Position numbers and translations under genes: made by a program. A DNA stretch of 64,000 nt from Mycolicibacterium fluoranthenivorans (GTDB lineage Bacteria; Actinomycetota; Actinomycetes; Mycobacteriales; Mycobacteriaceae), in contig NZ_JAANOW010000001.1 in the NCBI RefSeq assembly GCF_011758805.1, positions 62,001-126,000 on the forward strand, written 5' to 3'. Below the pieces are notes generated by a model that worked only from the letters and a program-made list of their open reading frames with translations, did not search any database and was not told the origin of the DNA. Below are positions 22,983-40,871 of the stretch, piece after piece; position 1 is the stretch's first letter, and each line of letters begins with the position of its first letter.

Positions 22983-23549
22983 ATGCAGCGACCGGACACC
23001 TGGCAGGCGGCCTTCGACCTGATCCGCACCCGCGCCCACGAACGGCGTGAAGAACCGTTCCGGCTGGTCAGCGGCCAGCTGAGCCACGACTACATCGACG
23101 GCAAGTACGCCATCGACGACGGTGAGCGGCTCACCATCGTCAGCCGGGCGGTGGCTGATCTGGCGGCGCTGAACGGTATCGAGTTCGACGCCGTCGGCGG
23201 TCTGACCATGGGGGCGGACCCGTTGGCGCACGGTATTGCGATGGTGACGGGTAAGGCCTGGTTCTCGGTGCGCAAGGAGCAGAAGCAGCGCGGGCGTGAG
23301 CAGTGGATCGAGGGCACCCGCCTGAAGGAGGGTGATCGGGTCCTGCTGGTCGACGACGTGATCAGCACCGGCGGGTCGACGGAGAAGGCGTACGAGCGGG
23401 TGCAACAGGTCGGCGCCGTGGTCACCGGTGTCATCCCGATGGTGGACCGCGGCGACGTGGCCGCCGAACTGTTCGGCGGTAAAGGGGTGCCGTTCGTCGC
23501 TCTGGTCACCTACAAGGACCTGGGCATCGACCCGGTCAAAGCCGTCTAG
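22983..23549 (+). CDS. Orotate phosphoribosyltransferase-like protein (PyrE family)
   Basis: 188 residues with the type I PRTase fold. The PRPP-binding loop is VLLVDDVISTGGST (about 119-132), and a KEQKQRGREQWIEG flexible-loop region precedes it. Motifs resemble PyrE, but the N-terminal half is divergent, so another phosphoribosyltransferase substrate is possible. Start ATG 22983. Its stop TAG and that of eccD1 share the CTAG at 23546-23549, so the two genes converge with no intergenic space. Confidence 0.82.
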   Translation: MQRPDTWQAAFDLIRTRAHERREEPFRLVSGQLSHDYIDGKYAIDDGERLTIVSRAVADLAALNGIEFDAVGGLTMGADPLAHGIAMVTGKAWFSVRKEQKQRGREQWIEGTRLKEGDRVLLVDDVISTGGSTEKAYERVQQVGAVVTGVIPMVDRGDVAAELFGGKGVPFVALVTYKDLGIDPVKAV

Positions 23550-25084
23550 AAGCGGAGATTGCGCAGCAGGTCGTAGACGCCCGCTATCCACAGCAGCAAC
23601 GGGATCACCGCGGCGATGGCCGCGCCGTCGAGCAGTTCCAGGATGCGTTTGGTGACCGGTGAGACGCGCTGCACATCGGCGGTGGCGCCGACGATGATCA
23701 GTGCCACGACCGCGACCACGGTGTAGCCGGCCAGCACCAACCAGGCCGACTGCGGGTACCAGAGGCACAGCCGGATCATCACCCCGGTCGGCACCGCCAC
23801 GGTGACCGCCAGAAGGGCCCAGGCGCACCAGCGTTCGGCGTACAGCCGGGAGCGGAAGCCACTCACCGCGGCCACCAGTGCGGCCACGATCAGGCTGTGC
23901 ACGAAGAAGTGGCCCTGCTCCACCACCGCGATCGCGCCGGTGGCCAACACCACCGCACCCGCGGTGAGGAAACCGTTGAGAAGCTGCTTGGAGAGCTGAC
24001 TGCGCTCGCTGAGGCGCGCGGCCGATTCGGGGACCGAGGCGATGATCGCCTGCCACGTCGGGCTTTCCTCGTCGGCGCCGTCGGGGTGGGACACCGGGTC
24101 CAGCAGTTCGTCGTTGGCCACCGTCTCCCCCGGCGCCGGGATCGGCGGGAGCGCGATACGCGCAACGGCGACGGTCAGCTTGGCCGCATTGGTCACCACG
24201 ATGAGGCCGAAGGCGATGGCACCGGCAGGCACCCAGTCCTGGGCGCCGTACCCGTAGGCGATCGCCGCCGCGGTGAGGGCCGTCGCCGCCACCGCGAGAA
24301 AGGACGCCAGATCCGCACGCCGGCGCGGGCCGCCCCGGGTGGCCAGGGCATACAGCAGGACGACGCCGGCCGCCGCGGCGATCTGCGGGGCGCCGAGACC
24401 GTCGGCATCCCGGGGCAGCGGCACCGCCAGCGCGACGGCACCCGCCAGCGCGGGAAGCGCTGCCACCAAGAGACTTTCGGCCATGTCGACATTGCCGAAC
24501 CGGCTCTTCGAGAGCATGCTGCCGCCGAGCAGACCCAGCCCCAGCACGCCCAGCGCGACGGTCCACCACCAGCCGTGGCCGGCCTGCGACCAGGCCAGCA
24601 GGGCGGTGATGACCACGACGGTCGACACGACCGGAACCGCCAGCCCGACAAACCGGTTCAGCGCGGTGCGGTCGAACACCGGGGATTCGTCGAGTACGGC
24701 GATCGCATCGATGACGTCTTCGACGAGCGGCCGATAGCGCTCGGTGCGGCTGACCGACACCAACGTCAGCAGCGATCCGTCGACGACACCCGCATCGTCG
24801 AGCGATTCGGTCGCCTTCAGCGGCGGAGCGCCCGGCCGCGCGAACGCCCACTCCCCCTGCGCCTTGAAGTCGAACCCCGCCAGCACCTCGGCCGGTGTGT
24901 CATCCAGCAGATCCGCCAGTACGGCCACCGTCTCGTCGATGTAGGTCTCGATCGAGGCGGCGGCCGGCAGCACCAGGTCGGTGAGACGGCGTCCGGTCAG
25001 GATGGTGACTCGGGTCGTTGCCGGGCGGCCGGGCGTCACGCTCGTGGACGCGGGTGCGACCGCACCGGTTGAGGTGGCGGTCAA
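23546..25084 (-). CDS. eccD1: ESX-1 membrane channel component EccD1
   Basis: Transmembrane core of the ESX-1 type VII secretion channel. 512 residues (511 in M. tuberculosis), with an N-terminal ubiquitin-like cytosolic domain (ATTRVTILTGRRLTDLVLP to SLLTLVSVSRTERY, about 17-120) and eleven hydrophobic segments. Blocks such as VLDESPVFDRTALNRFVG, DWVPAGAIAFGL and RSRLYAERWCAWALLA are almost those of Rv3877. The TTG at 25084 overlaps the espI stop and gives a family-typical N-terminus. It is the last gene of the locus here: the espJ/K/L/B, eccE1 and mycP1 genes that normally follow are replaced by a convergent pyrE-like gene. Confidence 0.95.
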   Translation of the reverse strand: MTATSTGAVAPASTSVTPGRPATTRVTILTGRRLTDLVLPAAASIETYIDETVAVLADLLDDTPAEVLAGFDFKAQGEWAFARPGAPPLKATESLDDAGVVDGSLLTLVSVSRTERYRPLVEDVIDAIAVLDESPVFDRTALNRFVGLAVPVVSTVVVITALLAWSQAGHGWWWTVALGVLGLGLLGGSMLSKSRFGNVDMAESLLVAALPALAGAVALAVPLPRDADGLGAPQIAAAAGVVLLYALATRGGPRRRADLASFLAVAATALTAAAIAYGYGAQDWVPAGAIAFGLIVVTNAAKLTVAVARIALPPIPAPGETVANDELLDPVSHPDGADEESPTWQAIIASVPESAARLSERSQLSKQLLNGFLTAGAVVLATGAIAVVEQGHFFVHSLIVAALVAAVSGFRSRLYAERWCAWALLAVTVAVPTGVMIRLCLWYPQSAWLVLAGYTVVAVVALIIVGATADVQRVSPVTKRILELLDGAAIAAVIPLLLWIAGVYDLLRNLRF

Positions 25085-26481
25085 CGACGTTCGAGGCGGT
25101 CGAAGTCGTCGGACAGCGCCGCAGCGAGTTCCACGATCCGGCGCTGGAAGGTGCTGCCCAGCAGTTCGAGCTGGATCTCGGTACCGGCGGCGATGTGCTT
25201 GTCCCAGGGCAGCACGATCACCCGGCCGGGTGCGACATGCCGTTCGAACTGCTGCACGAGGTCTTCCACGTCGATGTTGGTCTTGCCCGGGGTGACGTGG
25301 TTGATCACCACGCACGACCGGCCCAGCAGATCTTGATAGCCGTTCTGCCGCAACCAGTCCATGGTGACGGCGGCCTGGCGGGCCCCGTCGATGGAGGCGC
25401 TCGCGACGATCACCAGACCGGACACCGTGGACAGCACACCGCGCGCGGCCGGCTGGAACAGCCCGGCGCCACAGTCGGCGAGCACGAGGTTGTAATAGCG
25501 CGAGACGATGCCGACCGCGCCCTTCCAGTCGTCGTCGTTGAACTCGCGCCGGGCGGCGCTGTACTCCTCCGAGGACAACACCTCGAGGTTGGCGCCGTTC
25601 ATGCTGGTGTACGCCCGGATGTCGTTGTAACGGGATAACTCTTGGTCGGACAACAGATCTGAGATCGTGGCCGCGGACTGCCGGCCCGCCCGGTCGGCGA
25701 GGTTTCCGCCGTCGGGGTCGGCGTCGATGGCCAGGATACGGTCGCCGCGGACCCGGCTCAGCGCCGAACCGAGCGCCACGGTGACAGCGGTCTTTCCGAC
25801 GCCGCCCTTGAGCCCGAACACGCCGATCTGGTAGGAGTCCCTGGCATTTCGGCGGATTCGCGCGTGCAGGTCCATCTCGTAGATCTCGTCGGGCGAGAGC
25901 CCGAGGTTGATCCGGCTGAACACATACAGCCAGTGCCGCCAGCCGCGCTGGGACGGCATCTTCACCGCCGTGCGGACACCGACGTGTGAGAGTGCGTCGA
26001 TGGCACGGTGATTGCCCATGCTGGCGGCTGAGGTCGGCGCGGGCTGGGCCGGGATCGGCTGGCTTTGCGACCACACCGGTTCCGGCGCCTCGGCGAAGAC
26101 CTGGCTGGGTGCCGGCGCAGGCGCGGGACGGGCCGGCGGGGCCGGTGCGGGCCGCTGCTGCTCGTGCCGGGCACCGGAGGTCTGGGCGGCGGGCGGCGGG
26201 GTGCGCAGCATTCCGTTCTGGGCGCGCTGCGGACCGGTGTGTTGGGCCGGCCGGATCTGCTGGGTGATCTCCGCCTCACGCGGGGCAGGGACGCCCGACG
26301 CCTGGGTCTGCGTCGGGGCGACCGGCATCGACGGCGGAGTCACCTCGGTGGCACGCGGCGCCGAGGCGTGGATGGGCATCGGTGGCGGTGTGACCGCCGG
26401 TGCCGCACCGTCGATTTCGCTGTTGGCCTCACCGTCGGCGGGGCCGGCGGAGTGGAAGAGCCGGTCATAGTCGGCCGACAT
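25081..26481 (-). CDS. espI: ESX-1 associated ATPase EspI
   Basis: 466 residues: a Pro/Ala/Gln-rich disordered N-terminal third (about 1-150) and a C-terminal MinD/ParA-like ATPase with deviant Walker A KGGVGKTA (about residue 225) and AIDADPDGGNLADR. EspI is reported to regulate ESX-1 in response to ATP level in M. tuberculosis; its homologue is 666 residues, so the linker here is much shorter. The start ATG has AGAGG upstream. It shares the pre-Walker sequence LSPDEI with the ParA-like protein at 39528. The stop overlaps the eccD1 start, and a strong hairpin separates it from esxA. Confidence 0.93.
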   Translation of the reverse strand: MSADYDRLFHSAGPADGEANSEIDGAAPAVTPPPMPIHASAPRATEVTPPSMPVAPTQTQASGVPAPREAEITQQIRPAQHTGPQRAQNGMLRTPPPAAQTSGARHEQQRPAPAPPARPAPAPAPSQVFAEAPEPVWSQSQPIPAQPAPTSAASMGNHRAIDALSHVGVRTAVKMPSQRGWRHWLYVFSRINLGLSPDEIYEMDLHARIRRNARDSYQIGVFGLKGGVGKTAVTVALGSALSRVRGDRILAIDADPDGGNLADRAGRQSAATISDLLSDQELSRYNDIRAYTSMNGANLEVLSSEEYSAARREFNDDDWKGAVGIVSRYYNLVLADCGAGLFQPAARGVLSTVSGLVIVASASIDGARQAAVTMDWLRQNGYQDLLGRSCVVINHVTPGKTNIDVEDLVQQFERHVAPGRVIVLPWDKHIAAGTEIQLELLGSTFQRRIVELAAALSDDFDRLERR

Positions 26482-26521
26482 GATTACCTCTCATAGGTGA
26501 TACGCGACTGTGCAAGCAGGA

Positions 26522-26556
26522 GGTGGGCGGACAAGCCTCAGGCTAGTCCGCCCACC
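26522..26556 (-). terminator. Hairpin between esxA and espI (attenuator or terminator)
   Basis: Arms GGTGGGCGGAC (26522-26532) and GTCCGCCCACC (26546-26556) pair perfectly over 11 bp around a 13-nt loop. It begins 18 nt past the esxA stop on the minus strand. No U-run follows, which is common in mycobacteria. It would favour esxBA mRNA over read-through to espI-eccD1, or stabilise the esxBA 3' end. Confidence 0.65.
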
Positions 26557-26573
26557 CCACCTGCACTGTGGTT

Positions 26574-26864
26574 CTAACCGGCGAACATCCCGGTGACGCC
26601 GGCTTCGGTCTGCGCCATGGTCTGGGCGGCTTCGTCGACGGTCTGCGCCAGATTCTGCAGCGCGTTGTTCAGCTCGGCCGCCGTGCTGTTCCAGCGGACC
26701 TGCAGGGCCTGGTAGGCCTCGCGGGCGGCGCCGTCCCAGGTGGCCGCGAGCCGGCCCAGCGAGGCCTCGCCCTCTTCGAGCAGGCTCTGGGTGGTACCCA
26801 CGGAGCCGTGGATGTCGGCGGCGCCGGCCATGATGGCGGCGAAATTCCATGTCTGTTGGCTCAT
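26574..26864 (-). CDS. esxA: ESX-1 substrate EsxA (ESAT-6)
   Basis: Secreted WXG100 protein of 96 residues, partner of EsxB in a helical-hairpin heterodimer. The W-x-G turn is WDG (43-45), between two amphipathic helices. The ends match ESAT-6 closely (QQTWNFAAI at the start, ELNNALQNLA and VTGMFA at the end). SD-like GGAG lies upstream of the ATG. It follows esxB by 42 nt and is translated from the same mRNA. In pathogens EsxA is linked to membrane damage; in environmental species ESX-1 is linked to conjugation. The role here is not shown by the sequence. Confidence 0.97.
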   Translation of the reverse strand: MSQQTWNFAAIMAGAADIHGSVGTTQSLLEEGEASLGRLAATWDGAAREAYQALQVRWNSTAAELNNALQNLAQTVDEAAQTMAQTEAGVTGMFAG

Positions 26865-26906
26865 GATTCGATTTCTCCGTTTCGGTGGTGGTAGGTGATT
26901 CGGGTG

Positions 26907-27215
26907 CTAGATCATCCGGCTGGCGAGGGCGCTGGCCTGGTCCTCGTCGGTGCTGCCGTACTGCGTGCCACCGATGCCCAGGTTCTCGGAGATGTCGTCG
27001 AGCTCCCGGTTCTGCTGCGTGGCGGCCTCGTGGAAGCGCAGCAGGGCGGCCTGCGCGGCGGTCGCCGACGCACCGACCCACGCCGGCTGCAGGCCGGCCG
27101 CGGTGGCCTCGACGTGGGCCATCACGGTCCTGAGTTCGTCCGCGATGCGCTGGAAGTTGGCCGACTCGCCCGCGATGACGGAGAGATCGGCTTCCATCCC
27201 CTGTCCTGAAGTCAT
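26907..27215 (-). CDS. esxB: ESX-1 substrate EsxB (CFP-10)
   Basis: 102-residue WXG100 protein with W-V-G (46-48) at the hairpin turn and a C-terminal flexible tail carrying the type VII signal YxxxD (Tyr86 to Asp90). The last residues (ALASRMI) form the segment that in M. tuberculosis CFP-10 is recognised by EccCb1. It is the chaperone-like partner of EsxA. PPE68 lies 104 nt upstream and esxA 42 nt downstream on the same strand. Confidence 0.96.
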   Translation of the reverse strand: MTSGQGMEADLSVIAGESANFQRIADELRTVMAHVEATAAGLQPAWVGASATAAQAALLRFHEAATQQNRELDDISENLGIGGTQYGSTDEDQASALASRMI

Positions 27216-27319
27216 GGTGAAGCTACCTTTCCTTTTCCTGTGTCCTCACCACGTGTTGGCGAGTCTTCCAGCCCCCTCGGCCGGGAAGTTTGGGTGTTGC
27301 CGGTGCCGGTCATCGGTCG

Positions 27320-28627
27320 TCACCAGTCGTCGTCGTCTTCATCGAAACCATGGGCCAGCGGTGACGGGGTGGCGAGCGCCTCCCGCTTGCCACCGCTCTT
27401 CTCGCGCTGAGCGGCGCCGTTCATCGGGCCACCGCCGCCCGATCCGGCACCCACCGGCGCCAGACCGGCACCGGCTCCCCCGGCGGATGCTCCGGTCGGC
27501 GCCGGAGTCGACTGAGCCGGCGACCCGACCAGACTGGACATCAGCGGTGTCCGGGCCAGCGTGCCGCCGGCGCCCGGCAGCGACGCGGCGCGCACCAGAC
27601 CCGCGCCCGATGTCGCACCCGAGCCGCCCAGCAGCGGGTGCTCCGAGAACGGGCTCGCGCCGATCAGACCGAACTGCCGGCCGCCACTTCCGCCCATCTG
27701 ACCGAAGATCGAGCTCACCTGCTGCAACGGTTGGGTCAGCGTCTGCGCCCCCTGCGTGACGCCCTGTGTCATCTGCTGAGGCGCCTGGATCAGCGACTGG
27801 CCCAGTTGCGACGCGATCTGCAGGCCCTGTTGCATCCCTTGCTGCAGCATCTGCTGGGTCTGCTGGCCCTGAGCCTTATCGGCTTTCTGTGCCGCCCCCT
27901 GGGCACGCTGCTCACCCTGATTCGCAAATGCCGCACCCCGGCCCGCCGTCAGCCCGGCCGACTCCACGGTCGCCTGCATGGTGGTGTGCGCGAAGGCGGC
28001 CTCGCGCAGCGCCGAGCCGGGCAGGGTCGCGGCGAGCTGCCCCGAGGCCATGCCCAGTGCCGACTCCCCGACCCCCGGCACGACGATGGGCGTCATCGGC
28101 AGAATCGGTTCGAAGATGGTGTTGGCCGTGGTCTCGGCCTGGTACCCGAACATCACGGCGGCGGCCTGTTCCCACATCCGGACGTAGTCGGCCTCGTTGA
28201 TGCCGATCGGAACCGCATTCACGCCGAGGAAGTTGGTGGCGTTGAGCACCGCATTCGTGACGTGGTTCATCTCGATCTCGGGCAACGGCGGCGTCACCGC
28301 CATGGCCAGCGCGTACGAATTCGCTTGTGCGATGGCCTGCATAGCGCGCTTCTGCGATTGCAGCGCGGCGGTGCGCAGCCACACCACCATCGGCGTGGTC
28401 GCGGTGACCGCCTGCTCGCTGGCCTGGCCCTGCCAGGAACCCGACAGCGAGGCGAGACTGGCCGCGAGTTCTTCGGCCTGCGTCTCCAGCGAGATCGCCA
28501 GAGTTTCCCACGCCGCCGCCGCCTGGAGCATCGGCGTCGGGCCGGCACCGGCCATCAGGCGGCCGGTGTTGATCTCCGGTGGCAATGCCTCATAGAACAT
28601 CGTCAACATTGCGGGGACTGCAGACAT
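27320..28627 (-). CDS. PPE68: PPE family protein PPE68
   Basis: 435 residues. The N-terminal PPE domain (about 180 residues) starts MLTMFYEALPPEINTG, with the Pro-Pro-Glu motif and a SWQG turn matching the WxG-like loop. The C-terminal part is Gln-rich (about 240-300, many QQ and TQ), then Gly/Ala/Pro-rich, and ends in an acidic stretch (FDEDDDDW). It is longer than the 368-residue M. tuberculosis PPE68, the excess lying in the low-complexity tail. It should pair with PE35, be guided by EspG1, and be secreted or surface-held. Position between PE35 and esxB is canonical. Confidence 0.93.
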   Translation of the reverse strand: MSAVPAMLTMFYEALPPEINTGRLMAGAGPTPMLQAAAAWETLAISLETQAEELAASLASLSGSWQGQASEQAVTATTPMVVWLRTAALQSQKRAMQAIAQANSYALAMAVTPPLPEIEMNHVTNAVLNATNFLGVNAVPIGINEADYVRMWEQAAAVMFGYQAETTANTIFEPILPMTPIVVPGVGESALGMASGQLAATLPGSALREAAFAHTTMQATVESAGLTAGRGAAFANQGEQRAQGAAQKADKAQGQQTQQMLQQGMQQGLQIASQLGQSLIQAPQQMTQGVTQGAQTLTQPLQQVSSIFGQMGGSGGRQFGLIGASPFSEHPLLGGSGATSGAGLVRAASLPGAGGTLARTPLMSSLVGSPAQSTPAPTGASAGGAGAGLAPVGAGSGGGGPMNGAAQREKSGGKREALATPSPLAHGFDEDDDDW

Positions 28628-28674
28628 TGTTTGCCAGCTTCGCTCTCGTCAATTCTTGGCGGTCGCCGAGCCGG

Positions 28675-28971
28675 TCACATCAGGGTGGCGGCGCCCTCGG
28701 CGTCCACCGTCGTGTAGATGCCGGAAGACTCCAGATAGGCGGCGCCGGCGCGGGCCAGTTCCTGCTGGGCGTAGGCATTCAGCGCCGCAACCTGGGCGGC
28801 CTCGCTGGCAAAGGCGAGGGCCGCCTGGACCGACACCTCTTCGGCCCCTGCAGGCAGCAGGGCCATAGCCTCACTGGTCGCGGTGGTTCCGGTGGCGAGT
28901 CCGCGTCCCCCGTTGGCAACCACCTGGCTGCCGATGCCCAGCACCGCGGGCGAGTGTTCCATCGGTTGCAT
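28675..28971 (-). CDS. PE35: PE family protein PE35
   Basis: 98-residue two-helix PE protein starting MQPMEHSPAVLGIGSQ. The ATG at 28971 is preceded by GAGGAG with good spacing, while a 14-residue longer in-frame start lacks such a site. The helical hairpin (about 10-85) is the docking partner for PPE68. The C-terminus is short, without PGRS or other extensions. PE35 is the first gene of the PE35-PPE68-esxB-esxA secreted-substrate group and has 149 bp free upstream, room for its own promoter. Confidence 0.9.
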   Translation of the reverse strand: MQPMEHSPAVLGIGSQVVANGGRGLATGTTATSEAMALLPAGAEEVSVQAALAFASEAAQVAALNAYAQQELARAGAAYLESSGIYTTVDAEGAATLM

Positions 28972-29120
28972 GTGCAGTTCCTCCTCAACGGTTCCAAACG
29001 AGCTGGATGACATCTTTGGGATGGGGACCGCAAGTCCTGCCGTGGCGCTTCAATCGTGGACCCCCCGATCCGTTTGCTACCCCGTCGCCGTCAATTTTGC
29101 CAGGCGACTCGAAATCCATA

Positions 29121-30911
29121 CTAACCGTGGTTTTGGGGTGGTGCCGACACTTCTTCTTCCGGAGGATCGACATACGCCGCCTGAATCACCTCCTTCGCGT
29201 CCGGAGAGACGAGAAGTGCCTGGCCAGGCGGCCTGCGCTTGAGCTTGAACGCACTCGACGGGAACTCGGTCTTGTCGCCGGAGAGGAACAGCGTCGGGGT
29301 CCCCGCGCCGTAGGCCGCCCCGACGAACCGGTCCATCGTGGCCCGCTGCGCCTGACTCATCTGGCACGTGACGACGAGGTGCAGGCCGATGTCCGCGGCC
29401 GCGGGCAGCAGGGGCCACAACGGCGCCATCGGAGGCAGGCCGCCCGCGGCCGCCACCACCATGTGCCAGTCGTCGATGAGCAGCACGATATCGGGGCCCG
29501 ACCACCAGGATCGGGACCGCAATTGGGAGGTCGTGAGGTCCGCCGGCGGGAGCCTCTTCTGGAGCAGAACCGCCAGCCCCTTCACCGACTCGTCGAACGT
29601 CGCGGCATTGCGATTGATTGCTCCGGCCGACAGCAGATGACTCTCGGGAACCGCATCCAGCAAACCCGATCGGAAGTCACCGACCATGAACCGCACCTGA
29701 TCTCGATTGTTGCGCAAGCAAATAGCTTGGGCGATCGCATGCGCGATCCGGGTCTTGCCGGACTTGGGCGCACCGAAGACCAACACATGCGGCGTGCGCT
29801 GCATATCGGTGTAGGACACCGACAAGTCGGACTCGCGCACGCCCAGCGGAATGGTCCACCGCGTGCGGTAGTCGGCATCGGGTCCGGGCGGATTGGGGTC
29901 CATCTCGTTCAGGTAGATCCGGCTGGGCAGGACTCTGACCTGCGGGGCTTCCTCGGTGTGCAGCGATGCGATGTGGTCGACGGCCGCGGTGATGGCCGGC
30001 ACCAGGTCGGCACCGCTGTGCACACCGTCCAGGCGCGGCACCCCGATCATCAGGTGGTGCTTCTCCAACGAGATCGCCCGGCCCGGCCGGTTGGCCGGGA
30101 TCTCCCTGGTCATCCGGTCTATCTGCGTCTCGTTGACATCGCCGAGCCGGAACTCCACCTTGGTGCCCAGGTAGTCCCGGACCCGGGAGCGCAGCTCGGT
30201 CCAGCGCGGTGTGGCAATCACGGTGTGCACCCCGAACGCCAGGCCCTGGGCGGCCAGGTCCTGCACCACCGGCTCCAGATCGGGGAACTCGCCGACGAAC
30301 GCCGGCCAGCCGTCGATGACGAGGAAGACGTCCCCGAACGGGTCCTGCGACGCCGCGTGATTCGGGTCCTCCCGCATCTGCCGGTACGCGGCGATGGAAC
30401 CCACCCGGTACTGCTTGAACGTCGCTTCCCGCTGCCGCAGCACGGCCTTGATCTCCGCCACGGCCCGGTTGACCCGGTCCGGCTCGGCGCGGGTGGCGAC
30501 CCCGCCGACATGCGGCAGCCCTTCCAGGTACATCAAACCGCCACCACCCATGTCGATGCAGTAGAACTGCACCTGGCGGGGAGTGTGCGTGGCCGCGGCC
30601 GAGAGCACCAGGGTCTGCAGGAAGGTGGACTTCCCGGTCTGGGGCGCCCCGCCGACGGCGATGTTGCCGCCGGCTCCGGACACATCGATACCCCAGACCT
30701 CCTGGCGGTGCCGGCGCGGCTCGTCCATGATCCCGAGCCCGAAACGCAACGGCTGCCGGTGATCCCGCTCGACGAGCTCGTTGACCGGGGTGGGATCCGC
30801 CAGCGGGGGCAGCCACATCTTGTACGCCCGCACCTCACCGGTGGTCAGCTGTTCGAGGACCACCTCGCGCAGCACCCGCTGGTCACCGAGTTCGGTCATA
30901 CCGTTGGTCAT
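29121..30911 (-). CDS. eccCb1: ESX-1 ATPase EccCb1
   Basis: Cytosolic FtsK/SpoIIIE-type protein of 596 residues (591 in M. tuberculosis) with two ATPase domains: Walker [11 protein letters not shown] (87-96) and GAPKSGKT (about 375-385), with Walker B strands ending FLVIDGW and VLLIDDW. It completes the three-domain EccC motor together with EccCa1 and binds the EsxB tail. Its ATG overlaps the eccCa1 stop by 4 nt, giving coupled synthesis of the split motor, which in other ESX systems is one polypeptide. Confidence 0.97.
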
Positions 30912-33139
30912 GACACCGCCCCCGCGTCCAGCAGCGGTGCCGCCGTGAAGGGCTGAATGCGCACCACCTGGCGCTTGGGCTGGGCCCGTGGCGCATCGTC
31001 GTCGGCGTCCGCGAGCACGGTGGGCACATAGTTGGTACCGGTGTAGACACTGTGGAATTTCACCGGGTCCTCCATCCCCACCCGCAGGAATCCGACACCG
31101 CTCTCCTTGTTGGTGATGTACTGCGCCTCCGGCGTACCGATCACCGCCTTGGATTCCGCGGAACTGGTGGTGCGCAAGGCAATCCGGTACGTGAGGTTGG
31201 GCTCGAGCTTGTCGATCCGGACACCGCCGGTGTTCAGCGACTGGGTGGCCAGCAGCAGATGCACCCGCAGCGACCGGCCGACGCGGCAGATCCGGTCGAA
31301 CAGCGCGATGAAATCGGGGTGGTTCTGCAGAAGCTCGGCGAACTCGTCGACGACGACGAACAGTGTCGGCAGCGGAGCCAGATCGGCCCCGCGTTCACGA
31401 TGCTTCTCGTACTCGGCCACCCCGGAGAGCGCACCGGCGGCACCGACCTGCATACCCGCCTGGCGCAGAATGGACTGCCTGCGGTCCAGCTCACCGGTCA
31501 GCACCTCACCCATCCGGCTGACCAGCTCGGCCTCCTCCTCCATGTTGGTGACCACCGCCGCGGTATGCGGCAGCTTCTCCATGCCGAGGAAGGTGGAGCC
31601 ACCCTTGAAGTCGGTGAGCAGCAGATTCACCTGGTCCGGGTGATGCGTCGCGGCCAGCGACAGGATCAGGGTGCGCAGGAACTCTGATTTACCGGAACCT
31701 GTTGTCCCGATAAGCATTCCGTGCGGACCGGCGCCGAACTCGGCGCCTTCCTTGATGTCCAGGTGCATGATGTCGCCGGTCTTGAGCTCATGCCCGAACG
31801 GAATCCGCAGCCGGTCCCGGTCGGTGTCGGTGAACATCCGCCAGCGCGCGGGGGTGACCTCTTCCACCGTCTGCGCACCGACCAGCTGGTGCCACTCGGT
31901 GGCGACCTTCTTCTGCACCCGGGTGGTCTTGTCGATGATCGTCCCGGTGATGGACCAGCCGGCCAGCTTCCTGGCGATGCGGCCCGCCTGGGCCGGCGTC
32001 ATGGAATCCGCCACCCGGACCACCTGGCGCCAACCCTGTTGGGCCAGTTTGTCTTCGGCAGATCCGTCGGCATTAACCTTCAGTTTGTACGCCGATCCCC
32101 GGTGATTACCCAGCGTGATCACCGTGACACCGGCACGGCCGTCCACCGGGAAGCCGGCCCGGCCACCGGTGAGGTCGATGACGACGACATAGGCGCCGGC
32201 CGGTGCGGCGTCGGCGGTGTGCGGACCGCGCGCCGTGAGATCGGACAGTCCGTCCGGCCGGGTGAACACCAGCCGGGTCGGGCCGGCCACGTCGGTGTCG
32301 GACTGGTGCTGCGCATGCGGCAGCCACTTCAGCCAGGCCCAGTTCGGGTCTTCCGGGGTATCCGTGAGCACCCGGATCTGCAGCAGGTCCGGCGGATGCA
32401 AGACGGCCAGATGGCAGATCATCGCGGTCAGCAGACCGGCCGCACGTTCAGGCTCACCGCCGACGGCGATCGTCGGGAAGGTGCGCAACTGCACCAGTTT
32501 CGGGCAGTCGTGGATCAGGCCGTGGGTGCGCAGGAACTTGATCAGCCACATGTGGCTGACGGGCTCCAGGTGCGGCTGTGGCGCACCCTGGGGTCCGGCC
32601 AACTCACCGCCCACCGCCGGCTTGAGCAGCCGGTCGACGGCCGGCTCGGCACCGATGCCGATCCGGGTGGCCGCGAAGAAGTCGCCATTGGCCGGCCGCG
32701 ACCACTGCCGGTTGGTGCCGACCATCGACAGCAGATCGCCGGGATGCGGTGCGTGATAACCGAAGAACGTCACCTGAGCGGCGGCCGAGGTGGTGACCCG
32801 AGACCGCAGCCCGGCCAGATACCGCAGGTACTCCTTGCGGTCCGCATTGATCTCGGGCACCTTCTTGCCGCCTGGGCCGCCACCGGCCATGAAGCCGACT
32901 GTGCCCATGATCATCATCAGCGGCATCATCAGCATGTAGGGCGACAGCTGCCGGATGCCGGTGAAGACCATGATGGCGAGCATGCCGAGCATGCCGCCAC
33001 CCATGACATAGGGCAGCGCCTTCTGCAGGCCCGACGGGGGGATCTCGATACCCAGGTCATCCGGTGGGGTGACGTTGATCTCGCCCGGTGTCAACCGGGG
33101 GCCCCGCCGGATGGTGGGGGTGAACTTCTTGGTGGTCAT
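30908..33139 (-). CDS. eccCa1: ESX-1 membrane ATPase EccCa1
   Basis: 743 residues (747 in M. tuberculosis). Two adjacent transmembrane helices (about 42-85, [18 protein letters not shown] then [14 protein letters not shown]) anchor a stalk domain and the first FtsK-like ATPase domain, with Walker [10 protein letters not shown] (about 480) and Walker [12 protein letters not shown]. This is the membrane half of the ESX-1 motor. An AGGAGG precedes the ATG, 15 nt after eccB1. All catalytic motifs are intact, so the motor should be functional. Confidence 0.97.
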
Positions 33140-33154
33140 CGTCCACCTCCTTTC

Positions 33155-34681
33155 CTAACGTATCGGCGCACCCGGCGCGGGCATCGGCAGTGGTGCGGCC
33201 CCACCCGGCGGCGCGGGGGCGCCCTGGCCGGGCGCCTGCTGGCCGGTCGCCGTGCCCGCGACCTTGCGGGGGTCAGGGTCGGCGGGCAGCGTGTCGTGCT
33301 CGAGCAAGGCCGCCTCCTTGGACAGCACCGGACCGTCGACGAGCAGGCTGACCACCTGCCAGGGCGCGGTCAGCGGTGAGGTCAGCCCGAGCACGGTGGC
33401 GGTGTCCTGATTCGGCAGGCCGTACCGGATGCCCTGCGGGTCGATGTAGTAGAGCGCCTCGCCATAGCGTGGATCCGGTGACTGCAGCCGGATGAACTGC
33501 CCGCCGTCGATGTACACCGTTGCGGTGCCGGCGATCTGGCGAATGCCCGCGTTCATCCGGGCCGCCGGGATCGGCAGATGCCGTCCGCTGAACACGGTCT
33601 GGCGCGGCGACTGGTCGCCGGGTTCACGCTGCCAGGACCAGCACAGCGTCGGGGCGTCGTGGCGCAGCCGGATCTCCATCGGCTGATCGGGCAACGGTGA
33701 CACGAAAACCTGTTCGGCAATCTTGGCGACATCGCTGGCCTCCACCGACGGCGGCGAGATCAGCCCGAACGAGTTGGACGCGCGCAGGGCGGCGGCCGTC
33801 GTGCCGTTGACCTTCGCGACACCGTCGGCAAGCACCACATACTGCTGCTCGCCTGCGTCGGTGATCGTCTTGAACACCGACCCGATCACCAGATTCGGCG
33901 GCAGGCCAACGGTATTGGGCGCGCCCGCGCCGGCGATCTCCGGCAACTGCCACGGCCCGGCGTTGGGCAGCGCGTTGAACAGACCCTCGGAGATCGGCGT
34001 GGGCCGCGCGGTGACCGGGATGCCGACCGCACTGGTCACGGCCCGGTTGGCCAGGTCGATGGAATGCCGGCCGTCCTGGGTCACCAGCCAGTTGCGGTCC
34101 TGATAGGACACCAGCACGCCCTGGCTGGGGCGGATCGGCCCGACCGAGGAGTCGACCACCGGCGGCATGATGACCACCGACGTCTCCACCGAAGGTGCGA
34201 CGCTGTCGGGTTTGGTGACCGTGTCGCACAATGTCCACGTCGACGCCGGCGCACCCAGCGGGGTGGCATACGGCGCGCCCGGGATACCGATCGGCTGGCC
34301 CTTCGACATCCGGTTCAGCTCATCGGATTTCACCGCCGAAGGATTGTTGGAGTTACCCAGCACCAAGCGGGCCGACGTCAGGTTGTAGACGGGCCGCAAC
34401 TCTCCGGTGCCGGGCAGCACGACGTAGAGCTGGTTGGTCGTCCGGTCCACCAGAAGTGAGTCGTCGCCGCGCTTACCGAGTGGTTTGAAGTACGCCAGCA
34501 GCGCCGCGCCGAGGCACACCAACACCGCAATCACGATGCCCGCGCTGACCGCCCGGCTGTAGAACTGCAGCGGGTCGTCGTACATCCGGGTATCGCGCCG
34601 GACGATCGCATGCTCGACCCGCCGCAGCAGGAAACGCCATCCGCTGACCTGGACCTTGGTGGTGAGCCGGAAACCTGCCAT
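33155..34681 (-). CDS. eccB1: ESX-1 core component EccB1
   Basis: 508 residues. A short cytosolic N-terminus ([31 protein letters not shown]) is followed by one transmembrane helix (about 48-70) and a large periplasmic domain with the family repeats, for example [30 protein letters not shown] Pro/Ala/Gly-rich C-terminus (about 470-508) makes it longer than the 480-residue tuberculosis protein. It forms the periplasmic part of the ESX channel. It starts 4 nt after eccA1. Confidence 0.96.
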
Positions 34682-34685
34682 CTGC

Positions 34686-36407
34686 TCAGGCGCCGATATT
34701 CAGGCGGGCGTGCACAGCCTCGATCGCGGCCGCCATGTCCTCGCCGGTGACCTCGCTGAGCGCGTCGACGTCGAGGTTCTCGAAGTCCAGCGAACGAGCC
34801 AGCCGCATGTCCCGGCTCTGCTCGCCCGCCTCGACGAGCTGGCGGGCGTACCGGCCGTTGCCCGCGATGTCGAGCGCCGGCTTACCGTTGAGGTTCCGCT
34901 GGCTCAGCAGGGTCGCCGCCTCCAGCACACGCTTGGCCGCCTCCTCGTCCAGGCGCGAATCATTGGCCCCCGCAATGACCTTGGCGATCTCGACGATCTC
35001 CTCGGGTGCATAGGAATCGAACTCCACGCGGGTGGAGAAACGCGACCGCAGACCGTCGTTGGTCTCCAGCAGTCGGTCGATGTCGGCGCTGTATCCGGCG
35101 ATGATGACCACGAGTCGGTCGCGGTCGTTCTCCATCCGGGCCAGCAGCGTGTCCAGCGCCTCGGTACCGAACGGGTCGGCGCGGCCGTCCCGCTCCTGCA
35201 CCAGCGTGTACGCCTCGTCGATGAACAACACCCCGCCGACGGCCCTGTCGATGGTCCGCGACGTCTTCACCGCCGACTGGCCTTCGTACTCGGCGACGAA
35301 ATCCTTGCGGGAGGTCTCCACCAGTTTGGGTTCGGTGATGACGCCGAGGCCGGCCAGGATGTTGGCCACCACGCGGGCGATGGTGGTCTTGCCGGTGCCG
35401 GGCGGTCCGGTGAAGATCATGTGCTTGGACTGCTGGGCGACCTTCATCCCGCGTGCGGCCCGGACCCGGGCCATCTGGGTGGCCGCCCGGTACTTCTCGA
35501 TCTGCTCCTTGACCCGGCTCAGCCCGATCTGCCGGTCGAGTTCGGCCTGCGCCTCGGCGAGCAGTCGTTCGCGGCCGGAGTTGTCGGCGGCGACGCTGGC
35601 GGGATCCCACGGGTCCTTGCGGGCGGCGATCTTCTCGGCGGTGGTGGTCTCCATCCGGTAGGACGGATCGCGCAGGGCCGCTGTCACTTTCGGGGACGGG
35701 TGGGTGGCCTGCAGCCATTCCAGCAGCGCGATGGCCGCATCCTCGTTGCCCTGGCTGCGCCGGGTCATCGCCAGGAACCAGGCGATCGCCGGCGCGCACG
35801 CCTCACCGGCCGGCGCCGAATTTGCTTCCGTCAGTCTGCGTTCGGCCTCGGTGAACAGACCGAGGTTGGCCACCGCCACACCGTGCGCCACGCTCGCGGC
35901 CGCGCCGAGGAACTTGTCCGGCCAGCCGGCCGCGCCCCGCACCTGGTCGATCACATCGGTCCAGCGTTCGGCGGCGCCGTAGATGACCGCCTTGATCCAG
36001 GACACCAGGTACTCGGCGCCGGCGGCGGGCGCGTCGTCGAGCGCTTCGATCGCGTCGGCATAGTTGCCCTCGGCGGCTTCGCGCACTGCGAAGGCCATCG
36101 TGATGGCCAGTGGCGAGTTCACCGGGTAGGTGATATCCCCGTACAGCCCGCCGATCGGGATCCGGGCCCCCAGGCTGTTCATCGAGACCTCGGCACGGCC
36201 GGCGAGCTGGCCGAAGTTGCCGCGGGAGAACCAGGCCCGGAACAGGGTGGCCCGGTCGGTGTCCCCGCACCGGATCCGGCCGACCCATGCGTCGCAGGCG
36301 GTCTCGTCGACGGCGGTGATCTCGGTGAACAGTTCCAGGGACCGGGCGGGTGAGCTGGGCAGCATGCCGATCGCGGTGCCGAACAGACTCGCCAGATGTT
36401 CAGTCAT
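34686..36407 (-). CDS. eccA1: ESX-1 AAA+ ATPase EccA1
   Basis: Cytosolic CbxX/CfxQ-type AAA+ ATPase thought to act on PE/PPE-EspG complexes. From the ATG at 36407 the protein has 573 residues, exactly the M. tuberculosis length. The N-terminal half is TPR-like helical (1-280). The ATPase half holds Walker A GPPGTGKT (334-341) and Walker B LFIDEAY (394-400), then a sensor region ([10 protein letters not shown]). A longer frame of 15 codons lies inside espH and is rejected. The start overlaps the espH end by 8 nt. Confidence 0.96.
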
Positions 36408-36951
36408 GGTCACCTGCATACCTGGTCGCGAAAACGTGGGCCTGCGCGGCATCGGCCTCCTCCGGGGAGGGCAGGTCGAGATCGCGCTTCAAGAAGTCCC
36501 GGGTGACCACATCGTCCTGGCCTTCCCGCCGCATTCCTTCGAGCATGTAGGTGAACTGCGCGGACCGGGCCTGCGCGGTGGCCAGGCCGGCGATCACGAC
36601 GATCTCGTCGGCGAGCTGCGCCTCCGTCGACAACACGGCGGCGGGGGCCAGCTCGATCCGCTGCACCCGCCCGTCCATCAGCGCCGTCACCGTCACCGTG
36701 CCCGGCGGGTTCGTGACCGAGAACACCGCCACATCCGCGTCGAGGTCCTCTTCGGCAGGCCCCTCGTCGTCATCCACGGGAGCGGGCAGTCCGGCGTCGA
36801 ACACACTGAAGGCATCGAAAACCGATCCCTCCTGGTCCACGGCCTCGGCGTCGCCTGCCGCGAAGTCCAGCCCGACCAGCTCGTCGAACCCATCCTCGGT
36901 CCCCCCGGGATGCGGATAGTCATCGTCGTCGTACGACGGAGTCCCCACCAT
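36400..36951 (-). CDS. espH: ESX-1 accessory protein EspH
   Basis: 183 residues, the same length as Rv3867. The acidic, disordered N-terminal half (many Asp/Glu, about 1-75) is followed by a compact domain with VFSVTNPPGTVTVTALMDGRVQRIEL and TEAQLADEIVVIAGLA, and ends with SPEEADAAQAHVFATRY, closely matching tuberculosis EspH. EspH is a cytosolic factor affecting ESX-1 substrate stability or secretion. It lies between espG1 (12-nt gap) and eccA1 (8-nt overlap). Confidence 0.93.
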   Translation of the reverse strand: MVGTPSYDDDDYPHPGGTEDGFDELVGLDFAAGDAEAVDQEGSVFDAFSVFDAGLPAPVDDDEGPAEEDLDADVAVFSVTNPPGTVTVTALMDGRVQRIELAPAAVLSTEAQLADEIVVIAGLATAQARSAQFTYMLEGMRREGQDDVVTRDFLKRDLDLPSPEEADAAQAHVFATRYAGDHD

Positions 36952-36963
36952 CGAATGCTCTCT

Positions 36964-37809
36964 TCAGTCCCCGTCGAAGTAGTCGGTGTCCACCGTGCGT
37001 TCGAACCAGGTGCCCGACGGCAGGAATTCGACCAGCCCGTCCAAGGCGCGTTGCAGGTTCTCTTGGGTGCCGGGCAGGAAGCTGCCGAACAACTCGCCGT
37101 TGACCCGGCGCGGGATCGAGACGATCCGGCCGAGTGTGGAATCCAGCACGCCGGCGGCGACGGCGGCCTGACTGTAGGTGCCACCGTCGTGCCGTTCGTT
37201 CGCCGTGATCTCGACCCAGCTGTCGGGTTCCGCGGTCGCCTGGGCGTACACGCGTGCCGACGCCGGGGAGATGCCGAACTGGGCCAGCTGGTGTGGGGTC
37301 CGGGCGTCGGCGAGCTGCGAGCTGACCGCGGTCATCGGTTCCACGTCGGCGGGTTCGGCGGTGCCGAGCACAGCGGTCACCATCCCGGCGAGCCCGACCT
37401 GCGGCGCCACCCGCTGCAAGACCAGCATTTCCCCGTCCCTGGCGGCGATGACATGACGCTCCCCTTTGCGACACACCACGAATCGCACCATCTTCCCACC
37501 CACATCGCGACGCCACCACCGGCCCTCCAGGGTCCGGTCCGGGCGAGCCAGGGTGTCGGTCATCGCCGCCACCTCGGGGTGCGGTGCCCCGAAGACGTCG
37601 AGCACGCCCTGCGCGGTGAGGTCACGCGCGACCTGCTCCCACACCAGGTCCCGGAGTTCGGGCTGCGGGATGTTGGGCCGGATGCCCAACGAGGTCGGGA
37701 ACTCCACCAGGTTGAGCCGGTCGGCGATCACCAGCATCCCGTCGATGGTGATCTCCACCGCGACGACGTCGTCGTAGTGCGTGGGCTCGCGGTGGAAGCT
37801 CGTCATCAC
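36964..37809 (-). CDS. espG1: ESX-1 PE/PPE chaperone EspG1
   Basis: 281 residues of the EspG family: quasi-two-fold alpha/beta repeats with VAVEITIDGMLVIADRLNLVEFPTSLGIRPN at the start and SIPRRVNGELFGSFLPGTQENLQRALDGLVEFLPSGTWF at the end. EspG proteins bind the tip of PPE proteins from the cognate ESX system; here PE35/PPE68 are the expected clients. The ATG overlaps the espF stop by 4 nt. The usual length is about 283 residues. Confidence 0.95.
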   Translation of the reverse strand: MMTSFHREPTHYDDVVAVEITIDGMLVIADRLNLVEFPTSLGIRPNIPQPELRDLVWEQVARDLTAQGVLDVFGAPHPEVAAMTDTLARPDRTLEGRWWRRDVGGKMVRFVVCRKGERHVIAARDGEMLVLQRVAPQVGLAGMVTAVLGTAEPADVEPMTAVSSQLADARTPHQLAQFGISPASARVYAQATAEPDSWVEITANERHDGGTYSQAAVAAGVLDSTLGRIVSIPRRVNGELFGSFLPGTQENLQRALDGLVEFLPSGTWFERTVDTDYFDGD

Positions 37810-38126
37810 CGGCCCCCTGCGATCTGCCGGTCCAGAGCCGACCGCTGCGCGTCGTCGGTGCGGTCGTACCGGCCGGCCGAATTGCCGAGCCGGACACCGA
37901 GACCCTGCGACACCGACGCCATCCGCGTACCGGCGTCCGTGCGGGCTGCCTGTACCGCCGCGAGCGCCGCTGACGTCGCGGAGGCGACCACACCGTGCGT
38001 GGCGCGCACGGCGGGCGGCGTTGCCTCGGGCATTGCGGTGGCGGCGGCGAGTTCACCGGCGGCTCGCTCCTGGACGGCGGCCAGGCCACGTAAGCACGCG
38101 GTGGTGACGCGCAGATCGTCAGACAC
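37806..38126 (-). CDS. espF: ESX-1 secretion-associated protein EspF
   Basis: 106 residues, Ala-rich and mostly helical, with little sequence complexity. Size (103 in M. tuberculosis) and position between espE and espG1 identify it; the sequence itself only weakly resembles Rv3865 (for example the T-G-T-x-x-x-x-VSQGL region). EspE and EspF are co-dependent ESX-1 substrates in M. marinum. The start ATG is 6 nt after the espE stop and the stop overlaps espG1. Confidence 0.8.
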   Translation of the reverse strand: MSDDLRVTTACLRGLAAVQERAAGELAAATAMPEATPPAVRATHGVVASATSAALAAVQAARTDAGTRMASVSQGLGVRLGNSAGRYDRTDDAQRSALDRQIAGGR

Positions 38127-38132
38127 GTGTTC

Positions 38133-39155
38133 TTACCTCCCAGGTGGTGATGTGGCGGCGTCCGATACGGCCGTATGGTCCGTGACAACGTTAGCCGGGT
38201 CGGAGGTGCCAGGACCACTGTCTTCTGCACGGACGTGAGTGAGCTCATCCGGAACGGCCGCCGAAGACGGGTCGGGTTCGCTCTCGTCCTCGTCCTCGGG
38301 CTGGCGCTCGCGCGGGCCGGCCGCCACACCCTGCGCGGCCGCCTGCACCGCCGCGGCGACCAGCCCGCCGGCAGGGGCGAGCAGCGCGGCCAGCGGGGCG
38401 GTGAACGCCGTGGCCAGCGCGGGCAGCGCGCCCGCCATCCCGAACAGACCGGCGAGTGCGGCCGGCGGTCCCGGTGGGTCGGCGGTGTCGACACCGGTCG
38501 ACTCCGCGAGATCCTCGGCACCGCCGGGTCCGCCGAACCCGCCGTCAGGCAGTTCCGCGCCGGCGGCGATGGCCTGGTAGCGGCCGACGAGATCCTTCAG
38601 CTTGTCCGCGTTGTCTGCGGCCTCCTGGTGCATATTGGCGACCTCGAACCCCGCAGATGCCAGCGCCGTGTGCACCGCCGCGCTCTCGACCACCAGTTTG
38701 GCCGCGTCGCCGTAGCGTGGCACCAGATCCAGCCATCGGGTGTATTCCGACAGCTCACCGAGCCAGTTGTAGAGCTCGTCGATCTGTCTACGGTGAAAGC
38801 TCACCTGGTAGGCCTCGCCGGCCAGCACGCGGTGCACCTCACGGTCGGCGTCGGCCACGGATTCCGCGCGCAGCCGCTGCCGGGCGTTCTGGTCTGCGTA
38901 GGCGTCCGCACCCTCCCCCGCCCAGTGGTCCGCGGCGACCGCCCCGCCGAGTTCCGCGTCCGCGCTGCAGAATCCCTCCGCCGCCGCGCCGAACGCCCGC
39001 CCGTCATCGGGATCACCGTCACCGAGGGTGCGCTTCATCTCGGCGAGCAACCACTGACCGCCCGCGAGGATGTGCGAGCCGACCGCCTCGACGAGGGCGT
39101 CGGTGAGCTCGCCGTCCTTTCCCGACGGGCCGGGTGGCGTCGGTCGTGCACTCAC
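38133..39155 (-). CDS. espE: ESX-1 secretion-associated protein EspE
   Basis: 340 residues from the GTG at 39155, which has GGAG 7 nt upstream; the frame is open further but without a good start. The N-terminal half is an EspE/EspB-like helical domain with a W-A-G turn (78-80, HWAGEGADAYADQNA), the WxG of a type VII substrate. The C-terminal half holds a hydrophobic Ala/Gly/Pro segment (about 225-280) and an acidic tail. M. tuberculosis EspE has 402 residues. It heads the espE-to-eccD1 transcription unit and is divergent from the ParA-like gene across 372 bp. Confidence 0.85.
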   Translation of the reverse strand: MSARPTPPGPSGKDGELTDALVEAVGSHILAGGQWLLAEMKRTLGDGDPDDGRAFGAAAEGFCSADAELGGAVAADHWAGEGADAYADQNARQRLRAESVADADREVHRVLAGEAYQVSFHRRQIDELYNWLGELSEYTRWLDLVPRYGDAAKLVVESAAVHTALASAGFEVANMHQEAADNADKLKDLVGRYQAIAAGAELPDGGFGGPGGAEDLAESTGVDTADPPGPPAALAGLFGMAGALPALATAFTAPLAALLAPAGGLVAAAVQAAAQGVAAGPRERQPEDEDESEPDPSSAAVPDELTHVRAEDSGPGTSDPANVVTDHTAVSDAATSPPGR

Positions 39156-39527: not shown

Positions 39528-40871
39528 GTGAGCGACCGTGACGACGCGCTGCGTCACGAGCTCGGCTGGACCGGGCCGGAGGATTCCGACTACGAACCGC
39601 CGACCACCGCGGCGCGCTCGGCGGCGCCGGCCCCTGCCGCCGTGCCCGCCCGCCCGCCGGTGGATTTCGTGGCGCCCACACCCGACGAGTCGCGTCCGCC
39701 CGCGCAGCATCACCGGTCCGATGCCGGCGACGACACCGGACCGATCGCCGCCGTGCGGCCCGAGCCCGTTCCCAGCCACCCCCGACCGGAACACCCGCCC
39801 GCCCGGTCCGACTGGCCGCCGCAACACGCTGCACCGCCATCGCGTCCGGCGCCCCCGGGTCCCGGCCATCCGCACCCGGGCCACCCGTGGCCGCCGCCCG
39901 CCGGGTACGCCCCGGCCGCTCCTTCGTCGTACGCCGACCGGATCCCGGTCAGGGATCTGGTTCCCACCCGGCCGGCGCCACCCACCCGCGGCTGGCGCCG
40001 CGTGCTGCACACGCTCACCTTCGGGCTGGTGAACCTTGGCCCCTCGCCCGACGAGATCCGGGAGGCCGAGCTCGAGGCGGGCATCCGCGGCGTGCTGCGC
40101 GGCCACTACAAGATCGGGGTCATGGGCAAAGGCGGCGTCGGCAAGACGACCGTATCCGCAAGTGTCGGTTCGGTTTTCGCGGAGCTGAGGCCTGACGACC
40201 GGGTGGTCGCCGTCGATGCGGACACCGCCTTCGGGAAACTGGGCAGCCGGGTGGATCCGCGCGCGGTCGGCTCGTACTGGGAGTTGGCGTCCGACCAGCA
40301 TCTGGATACGTTCGCCGATATCCGCAACCGGGTCGGAAACAACGCCGCCGGGTTGTTCGTGCTGGCGGGCGAGGCCAGCCCCGCGCGCCGGCGCATCCTG
40401 GACCCCGCCATCTACCGGGAGGCGACCTCACGGTTGGACCGGTACTTCTCCATCTCGATCGTCGACTGCAGTTCCACCATGGACACACCGGTGACCCAAG
40501 AAGTGCTCCGCGATCTCGACGCACTGATCGTGGTGTCCTCGCCCTGGGTGGACGGTGCCGCCGCGGCCGGGCAGACGATGGACTGGCTGGCCAGTCGTGG
40601 ACACACGAACCTGCTGCAGCGCACCGTCGTGGTGCTCAACGACTCCGACGGGCATTCCGACAAACGCACCCGCTCGATCTTGGCCCAGCAGTTTGCCGGG
40701 CAAGGCCAGGCCGTGGTCGAGGTGCCCTTCGACAGCCAGATCAGGCCCGGCGGAGTGATTCCCGGCACCAGGGGGATGTCACCGCAGACCCGGCGAAAGT
40801 TCGTCGAGATCGCCGCGGCGCTGGCCGCCCACTTCCCCCGCACCGACGACCGGAACCGGGAACGCTTCTGA
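39528..40871 (+). CDS. ParA/MinD-like ATPase, EspI paralogue (Rv3860-like)
   Basis: 447 residues: a Pro/Arg-rich disordered N-terminus (about 25-150, with many PxP and HPxPxH) and a ParA-like domain with deviant Walker A GKGGVGKTT (about 204-212), VVAVDADTAFGKLGSRVDP and IVDCSSTMDTPVT. The segment before Walker A (FGLVNLGPSPDEIREAELEA) is shared with EspI, so the two are paralogues. In M. tuberculosis Rv3860 is a similar protein at the espE side of ESX-1. GTG 39528 follows AGGAGGAGG. A regulatory or spatial role in ESX-1 is inferred from position. Confidence 0.85.
   Translation: MSDRDDALRHELGWTGPEDSDYEPPTTAARSAAPAPAAVPARPPVDFVAPTPDESRPPAQHHRSDAGDDTGPIAAVRPEPVPSHPRPEHPPARSDWPPQHAAPPSRPAPPGPGHPHPGHPWPPPAGYAPAAPSSYADRIPVRDLVPTRPAPPTRGWRRVLHTLTFGLVNLGPSPDEIREAELEAGIRGVLRGHYKIGVMGKGGVGKTTVSASVGSVFAELRPDDRVVAVDADTAFGKLGSRVDPRAVGSYWELASDQHLDTFADIRNRVGNNAAGLFVLAGEASPARRRILDPAIYREATSRLDRYFSISIVDCSSTMDTPVTQEVLRDLDALIVVSSPWVDGAAAAGQTMDWLASRGHTNLLQRTVVVLNDSDGHSDKRTRSILAQQFAGQGQAVVEVPFDSQIRPGGVIPGTRGMSPQTRRKFVEIAAALAAHFPRTDDRNRERF

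Follow-up and report, generated by a model that had tools for sequence, protein, structure and literature searches.

A complete ESX-1 gene set in two unlinked operons of Mycolicibacterium fluoranthenivorans, very probably separated by an inversion carrying the replication origin

The window analysed here is a stretch of 64,000 nucleotides (C1:62001-126000) from the M. fluoranthenivorans genome, a 6.41 Mb assembly in six contigs. It contains, entirely on the minus strand and running from 39155 to 23546, the complete series espE-espF-espG1-espH-eccA1-eccB1-eccCa1-eccCb1-PE-PPE-esxB-esxA-espI-eccD1, which ends against a convergent pyrE-like gene. In window coordinates the features are:

38133..39155, minus strand: espE (EspA/EspE family, PF18879), start as set by the gene caller
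37806..38126, minus strand: espF, named from position (EspC family, PF10824)
36964..37806, minus strand: espG1 (PF14011, EspG)
36400..36951, minus strand: espH, named from position (YbaB match only, below cut-off)
34686..36452, minus strand: eccA1 (TIGR03922, 750.6 bits)
33155..34681, minus strand: eccB1 (TIGR03919, 522.8 bits)
30908..33139, minus strand: eccCa1 (TIGR03924, 764.7 bits)
29121..30911, minus strand: eccCb1 (TIGR03925, 665.6 bits)
28675..28962, minus strand: PE35-like gene (PF00934)
27320..28609, minus strand: PPE68-like gene (PF00823)
26907..27197, minus strand: esxB (WXG100)
26574..26864, minus strand: esxA (WXG100)
25081..26481, minus strand: espI, MinD/ParA-like ATPase (NF047907, 27.7 bits, cut-off 30; 96% to the copy in locus L013)
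23546..25081, minus strand: eccD1, last gene of this half (TIGR03920, profile positions 1-455 of 455)
23546..23549, no strand: CTAG common to the pyrE and eccD1 stops, the inversion breakpoint
22983..23549, plus strand: pyrE-like gene, the new neighbour of eccD1 (TIGR00336, 108.2 bits, cut-off 106.8)

Family scans of the window place EccD, EccCb, EccCa, EccB, EccA and one WXG100 protein above the model cut-offs, with the EspI N-terminal model falling slightly short of its own, and Pfam adds matches to WXG100 (for both EsxB and EsxA), PPE, PE, EspG, the EspC family and EspA/EspE. The products that we take to be EspF and EspH are so called from their position in the ESX-1 gene order. The scans bear out what a preliminary description had claimed from the letters alone, namely a complete and ordered espE to eccD1 series, and the sharing of one CTAG by the eccD1 and pyrE stops is likewise correct. 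Upstream of espE and divergent from it lies an ATPase gene (40002-40871, plus strand) whose relatives in M. canariasense and in a further genome, G420, match EspI at 36-38%.

The M. tuberculosis ESX-1 gene order extends from espE to mycP1. Among the window genes to the left of eccD1, comprising pyrE and other chromosomal genes, there is no match to espL, espB, eccE1 or mycP1; their absence, asserted in the preliminary description for this locus, does not extend to the genome, in which a whole-genome search located an intact mycP1-eccE1-espB-espL operon at C1:403407-398690 on the minus strand (L009:8691-13408). From eccD1 to espL is 313 kb on the same contig, and ESX-1 in this genome is accordingly not one contiguous locus, although all of its core components are found, distributed over two loci. 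A search for eccE1, mycP1 and espB had been proposed in order to choose between a split locus, replacement by paralogues of another ESX system and outright loss, and all three genes turned up in this one operon. Loss of the four genes is rejected with an intact operon at hand, replacement is contradicted by the presence of dedicated MycP1 and EccE1, and the split locus stands, the operon being unlinked and its MycP and EccE closely similar to copies from intact ESX-1 loci.

The genome encodes two EccE proteins (C1:401 and 825 kb), three mycosins (402, 824 and 1430 kb) and three EccD proteins (85, 822 and 1431 kb), the genes within 815-832 kb and at 1430 kb belonging, we presume, to ESX-3 and ESX-4. 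MycP1 and EccE1 of the tail operon are 95% identical to those of G420 and 84-88% to those that the M. neoaurum, M. frederiksbergense and M. aurum relatives encode within an unbroken ESX-1 locus, while the two other mycosins of the genome reach only 43% and 40% identity with the tail mycosin; the latter retains the DTG, HGT and GTSFA motifs, presumably catalytic. EspB carries the EspB PE and PPE domains (PF18625 and PF21856), with an NCBIfam score of 121.6 bits that is far short of the 450 cut-off, and EspL is named from its position and a YbaB domain. Directly upstream of mycP1, on the same strand and with a gap of less than 200 bases (L009:13372-13555), lie deoR-pfkB-fruA-ptsH, and transcriptional read-through from this fructose operon into mycP1 is possible.

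The pyrE-eccD1 junction also occurs in MAG nzgw94 (L013), in M. canariasense (L022) and in G420, and the agreement of three other assemblies excludes an artefact of contig joining. The four genomes sharing the junction group as one clade (support 99, starred) in a tree of EccD1 with 87 rows, and their sister group comprises the unsplit M. neoaurum, M. frederiksbergense and M. aurum along with others (98, starred, for the ten together); among the matches listed, MAG nzgw94 (93%) and M. canariasense (92%) are the nearest named EccD1 relatives.

The genes opposite pyrE form an ABC operon (ABC-perm2-perm1-SBP) in the unsplit genomes G384, G230, G284 and G364; in G386, where the ABC and permease genes are missing, pyrE faces SBP instead. 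In each of the four unsplit genomes read at the other junction (G364, G384, G386 and G230) eccD1 faces espL, the two genes sharing a CTAG. Here, eccD1 stands opposite pyrE, and SBP-perm1-perm2-ABC is directed towards espL, from which a cyclase gene separates it; in G420, the only genome for which direct contact is known, ABC and espL overlap by CTAA. Compared with the ancestral pairs, pyrE|eccD1 and ABC|espL are the reciprocal junctions of one inversion, whose second breakpoint falls between the ABC gene and espL at C1:395-398.7 kb, beyond the limits of the window. The gene interposed there (C1:395473-398514; L009:5474-8515) is an adenylate cyclase plus AAA gene and is absent from this place in G420. 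No cyclase homologue was found at E 1e-20 in the loci compared, and the gene looks like a later insertion; as a candidate for the ancestral neighbour of pyrE it was rejected, the relatives having the ABC operon in that position.

Gene strands across the region give the same picture. Reciprocal best hits between C1:60-420 kb and the unsplit G384 yielded 158 pairs, and 123 of the 125 shared genes in the interval are on the opposite strand, while all 33 shared genes in the flanks keep theirs (18/18 on the left and 15/15 on the right, the latter counting 14 plus espL, which fell on the cut line). Among the pairs listed the order within the interval is mostly reversed. The interval includes dnaA (C1:168124-169500), flipped relative to the flanks in comparison with G384, G230 and G284, so that the origin was carried along and each gene is still read in the same direction with respect to replication, a feature that makes inversions of this kind tolerable. 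Both breaks are 3'-3' junctions and disrupt no gene. In G364 pyrE and ESX-1 are both on one side of dnaA and in G386 dnaA has the other orientation, layouts that differ from that of G384 and point to further rearrangements around the origin.

We therefore consider it highly probable that the complete ESX-1 set came to occupy two unlinked operons through a single inversion of ∼313 kb, spanning dnaA/oriC, in an ancestor shared by this genome, MAG nzgw94, M. canariasense and G420. Gene order shows that the breaks fell in two convergent pairs, pyrE-ABC and eccD1-espL, which exchanged partners, cutting both ESX-1 operons at their 3' ends only and leaving coding sequences whole and upstream regions untouched; the split would have been tolerated because the operons were separate convergent transcription units beforehand. 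CTAG is roughly tenfold depleted in the window (19 occurrences, where base composition predicts ∼190), and an overlap of exactly four bases occurs in 5 of the 51 convergent pairs of C1:60-420 kb. A CTAG is common to pyrE and ABC in G384 and G284, but in G230 and G364 a few bases separate the two genes. Our guess is that exchange at the shared CTAG was a four-base microhomology joining; the separation of pyrE and ABC in G230 and G364 means that microhomology is only suggested, and the ABC/espL overlap of G420, being CTAA, does not match exactly either.

Two other origins of this arrangement deserve weighing. A misassembly at 23.5 kb, which the preliminary description had named as one finding that would overturn it, might be entertained for a genome in six contigs, but the same CTAG junction in MAG nzgw94, M. 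canariasense and G420, together with the partner junction ABC|espL in G420, reduces its likelihood to practically nil. Relocation of the tail operon by transposition or horizontal transfer would be in keeping with the many mycobacterial genomes that show further rearrangements here, and with G197, a split genome of another type described below, where the espK and mycP1 ends flank one site (window ∼9.1-9.9 kb) in a manner more like insertion followed by a break. The 313-kb interval is, however, reversed in its entirety (123 of 125 shared genes), and the tail operon retains its ancestral upstream neighbours ptsH-fruA-pfkB-deoR; we regard such a relocation as very improbable.

In order to see how often ESX-1 is divided we surveyed 248 genomes of the genus, drawn evenly and including this one, accepting EccD1 matches at E 1e-150 or below and MycP1 matches at E 1e-120 or below. 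Both are present in 136 genomes and MycP1 only in 5 more. The two genes are within 25 kb in 87 genomes (3.1-19.4 kb; 86 of 87 convergent) and 52-315 kb apart on one contig in 19 (17 convergent, the exceptions being this genome and G311), while in 30, G420 among them, they are on different contigs and distance is not interpretable. Thus ESX-1 is split in 19 of the 106 genomes in which a single contig carries both genes. Splits are recurrent and arose in at least two lineages. One type (G197/G147) has M. novocastrense and M. lehmannii as matches beside eccD1, another (G311/G235) has M. barrassiae, M. neglectum and M. deserti; these cluster with each other (support 94, not starred) and apart from this genome in the EccD1 tree, and the split members G382 and G369 are elsewhere again. 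The G311 type has espL next to the gene that precedes pyrE, and espK remains with eccD1. The G197 type has its mycP1 and espK ends next to genes that in M. fluoranthenivorans lie on either side of a single site, 11-15 kb upstream of pyrE. The same part of the chromosome has thus been involved repeatedly. All six split genomes whose tail was read (this one, G420, G147, G197, G235 and G311) have an intact tail operon. The layout of G332 differs from that of its near relative G311. G430 contains two equal-scoring EccD1 copies in opposite orientation (C1:1280-2806 and C1:197111-198637), each with a MycP1 copy ∼15 kb away, reflecting duplication or an assembly effect.

Neither ESX-1 half contains espJ or espK. 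In the four unsplit near relatives read at the junction eccD1 and espL overlap, leaving no room for these genes, and their absence is therefore older than the split. An esp-like cassette of a 250-aa gene, an EspJ-like and an EspK-like gene is present at C4:180.4-185.7 kb (L117:12469-17749), flanked by a LOG/AAA pair on one side and ABC-F/dapE/dapD on the other. Its EspJ- and EspK-like genes (C4:180.7-185.7 kb), named from the positions of the relatives' genes, are 40% and 55% identical to them; G420 has such genes at a like site, with the EspK end at 83%, and G364 and G386 have homologues of 41-51% at a different one. The C4 genes may be displaced originals or old paralogues.

Two of the genomes sharing the split have lost a large part of ESX-1. 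Gone from the locus in G420 and M. canariasense are espH, eccA1 to eccCb1, PE, PPE, esxB and esxA, and in both genomes espG1 up to about residue 114 is joined in frame to espI (L098:14249-15970 in G420; L022:8232-9953 in M. canariasense). The identical joint suggests that the deletion happened once, in which case the differences between the two post-date it. No ESX-1-like EccCb was found in G420, where three matches of only 37-42% lie on contig C3, away from the locus; G420, lacking an ESX-1 EccC, retains EccD1, MycP1, EccE1, EspB and EspL. Between G420 and M. canariasense the differences in eccD1 number 10 nonsynonymous against 63 synonymous (dN/dS 0.056), a mark of strong purifying selection, and those in the fusion 15 against 97 (0.046), compared with 0.064 for pyrE and looser values for espE (0.38) and espF (0.53). 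Amino-acid changes unique to G420 and to M. fluoranthenivorans number 6 and 6 in mycP1, 0 and 8 in eccE1, 6 and 6 in eccD1, 2 and 3 in espL and 10 and 5 in espB (chi-square 1.67), so that no general relaxation is visible. EccD1 thus seems to be retained without its own motor, on the evidence of one genome pair with M. canariasense represented by one contig, and the same probably seems to apply to EccE1 and MycP1. We put forward, tentatively and with some doubt, that EccD1-EccE1-MycP1 plus EspB could form a separable ESX-1 sub-assembly with a job that does not require its own EccC motor, borrowing that of another ESX system or acting alone in the envelope. PMC6917791 notes that several ESX-1 genes are absent in M. 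cosmeticum and that its clade is without espE, espF, espJ and espK by BLAST with M. tuberculosis genes, the discussion there naming espL in place of espK as missing; in contrast to that clade report, espE-, espF- and espL-type genes are present here.

As for function, the parts are whole and show purifying selection: dN/dS (Nei-Gojobori) between this genome and MAG nzgw94 is 0.067 for eccD1, 0.048 for eccCb1, 0.044 for espI, 0.082 for esxB and 0.142 for esxA, and between this genome and G420 it is 0.075 for mycP1, 0.053 for eccE1, 0.048 for espL and 0.189 for espB. Most likely, on these sequence comparisons, ESX-1 works normally here from two unlinked operons: EccABCD1, EsxAB, PE/PPE and EspE-I from the window would be made together with MycP1, EccE1, EspB and EspL from C1:399-403 kb and would assemble an ordinary ESX-1 machine. 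The genome does have other mycosins and one other EccE, yet provision of the MycP and EccE functions by other ESX systems is exceedingly improbable given dedicated genes that are intact, constrained and in possession of the DTG, HGT and GTSFA motifs. Since G420 and M. canariasense no longer have eccA1-eccCb1 and esxBA at the locus, ESX-1 is dispensable in the clade, and it may be on its way out in this genome too. That the genes are whole and the system already unused, in early decay after the split, would fit the missing motor genes of these sister genomes; it is nonetheless unlikely, since dN/dS is 0.04-0.14 between this genome and MAG nzgw94, which diverged with the split already present. 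Normal function from two operons remains the reading that we prefer.

Among open-licence PMC papers we found no description of an ESX-1 with unlinked mycP1/eccE1 or of this inversion. What is new here is an origin-carrying inversion at convergent stops, the recurrence of splits via other breaks and a constrained motor-less remnant. The recurrent splits show that mycP1-eccE1-espB-espL acts as a module apart from eccABCD/esxBA, and the motor-less sister genomes offer a direct test of whether EccD1, EccE1 and the mycosin have any role without EccC.

The same espE-eccD1 and mycP1-eccE1-espB-espL sets, in the same order within each half, make up the ESX-1 loci of M. tuberculosis and M. smegmatis; unlike those, the halves here are 313 kb apart and neither includes espJ or espK. 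The nearest unsplit form occurs in M. neoaurum, M. frederiksbergense and M. aurum, a compact ESX-1 in which eccD1 converges on espL-espB-eccE1-mycP1 with no espJ or espK between, and which is contiguous whereas the present locus is split. In the G197/G147 and G311/G235 genomes eccD1 and mycP1 are likewise far apart with the tail intact, though by other breakpoints and in another lineage. PMC2763215, which gives the M. tuberculosis ESX-1 locus tags, describes the gene order of T7S systems as highly variable and espACD as unlinked to the main ESX-1 locus. In that case the unlinked genes are accessory; here they encode the core membrane components MycP1 and EccE1.
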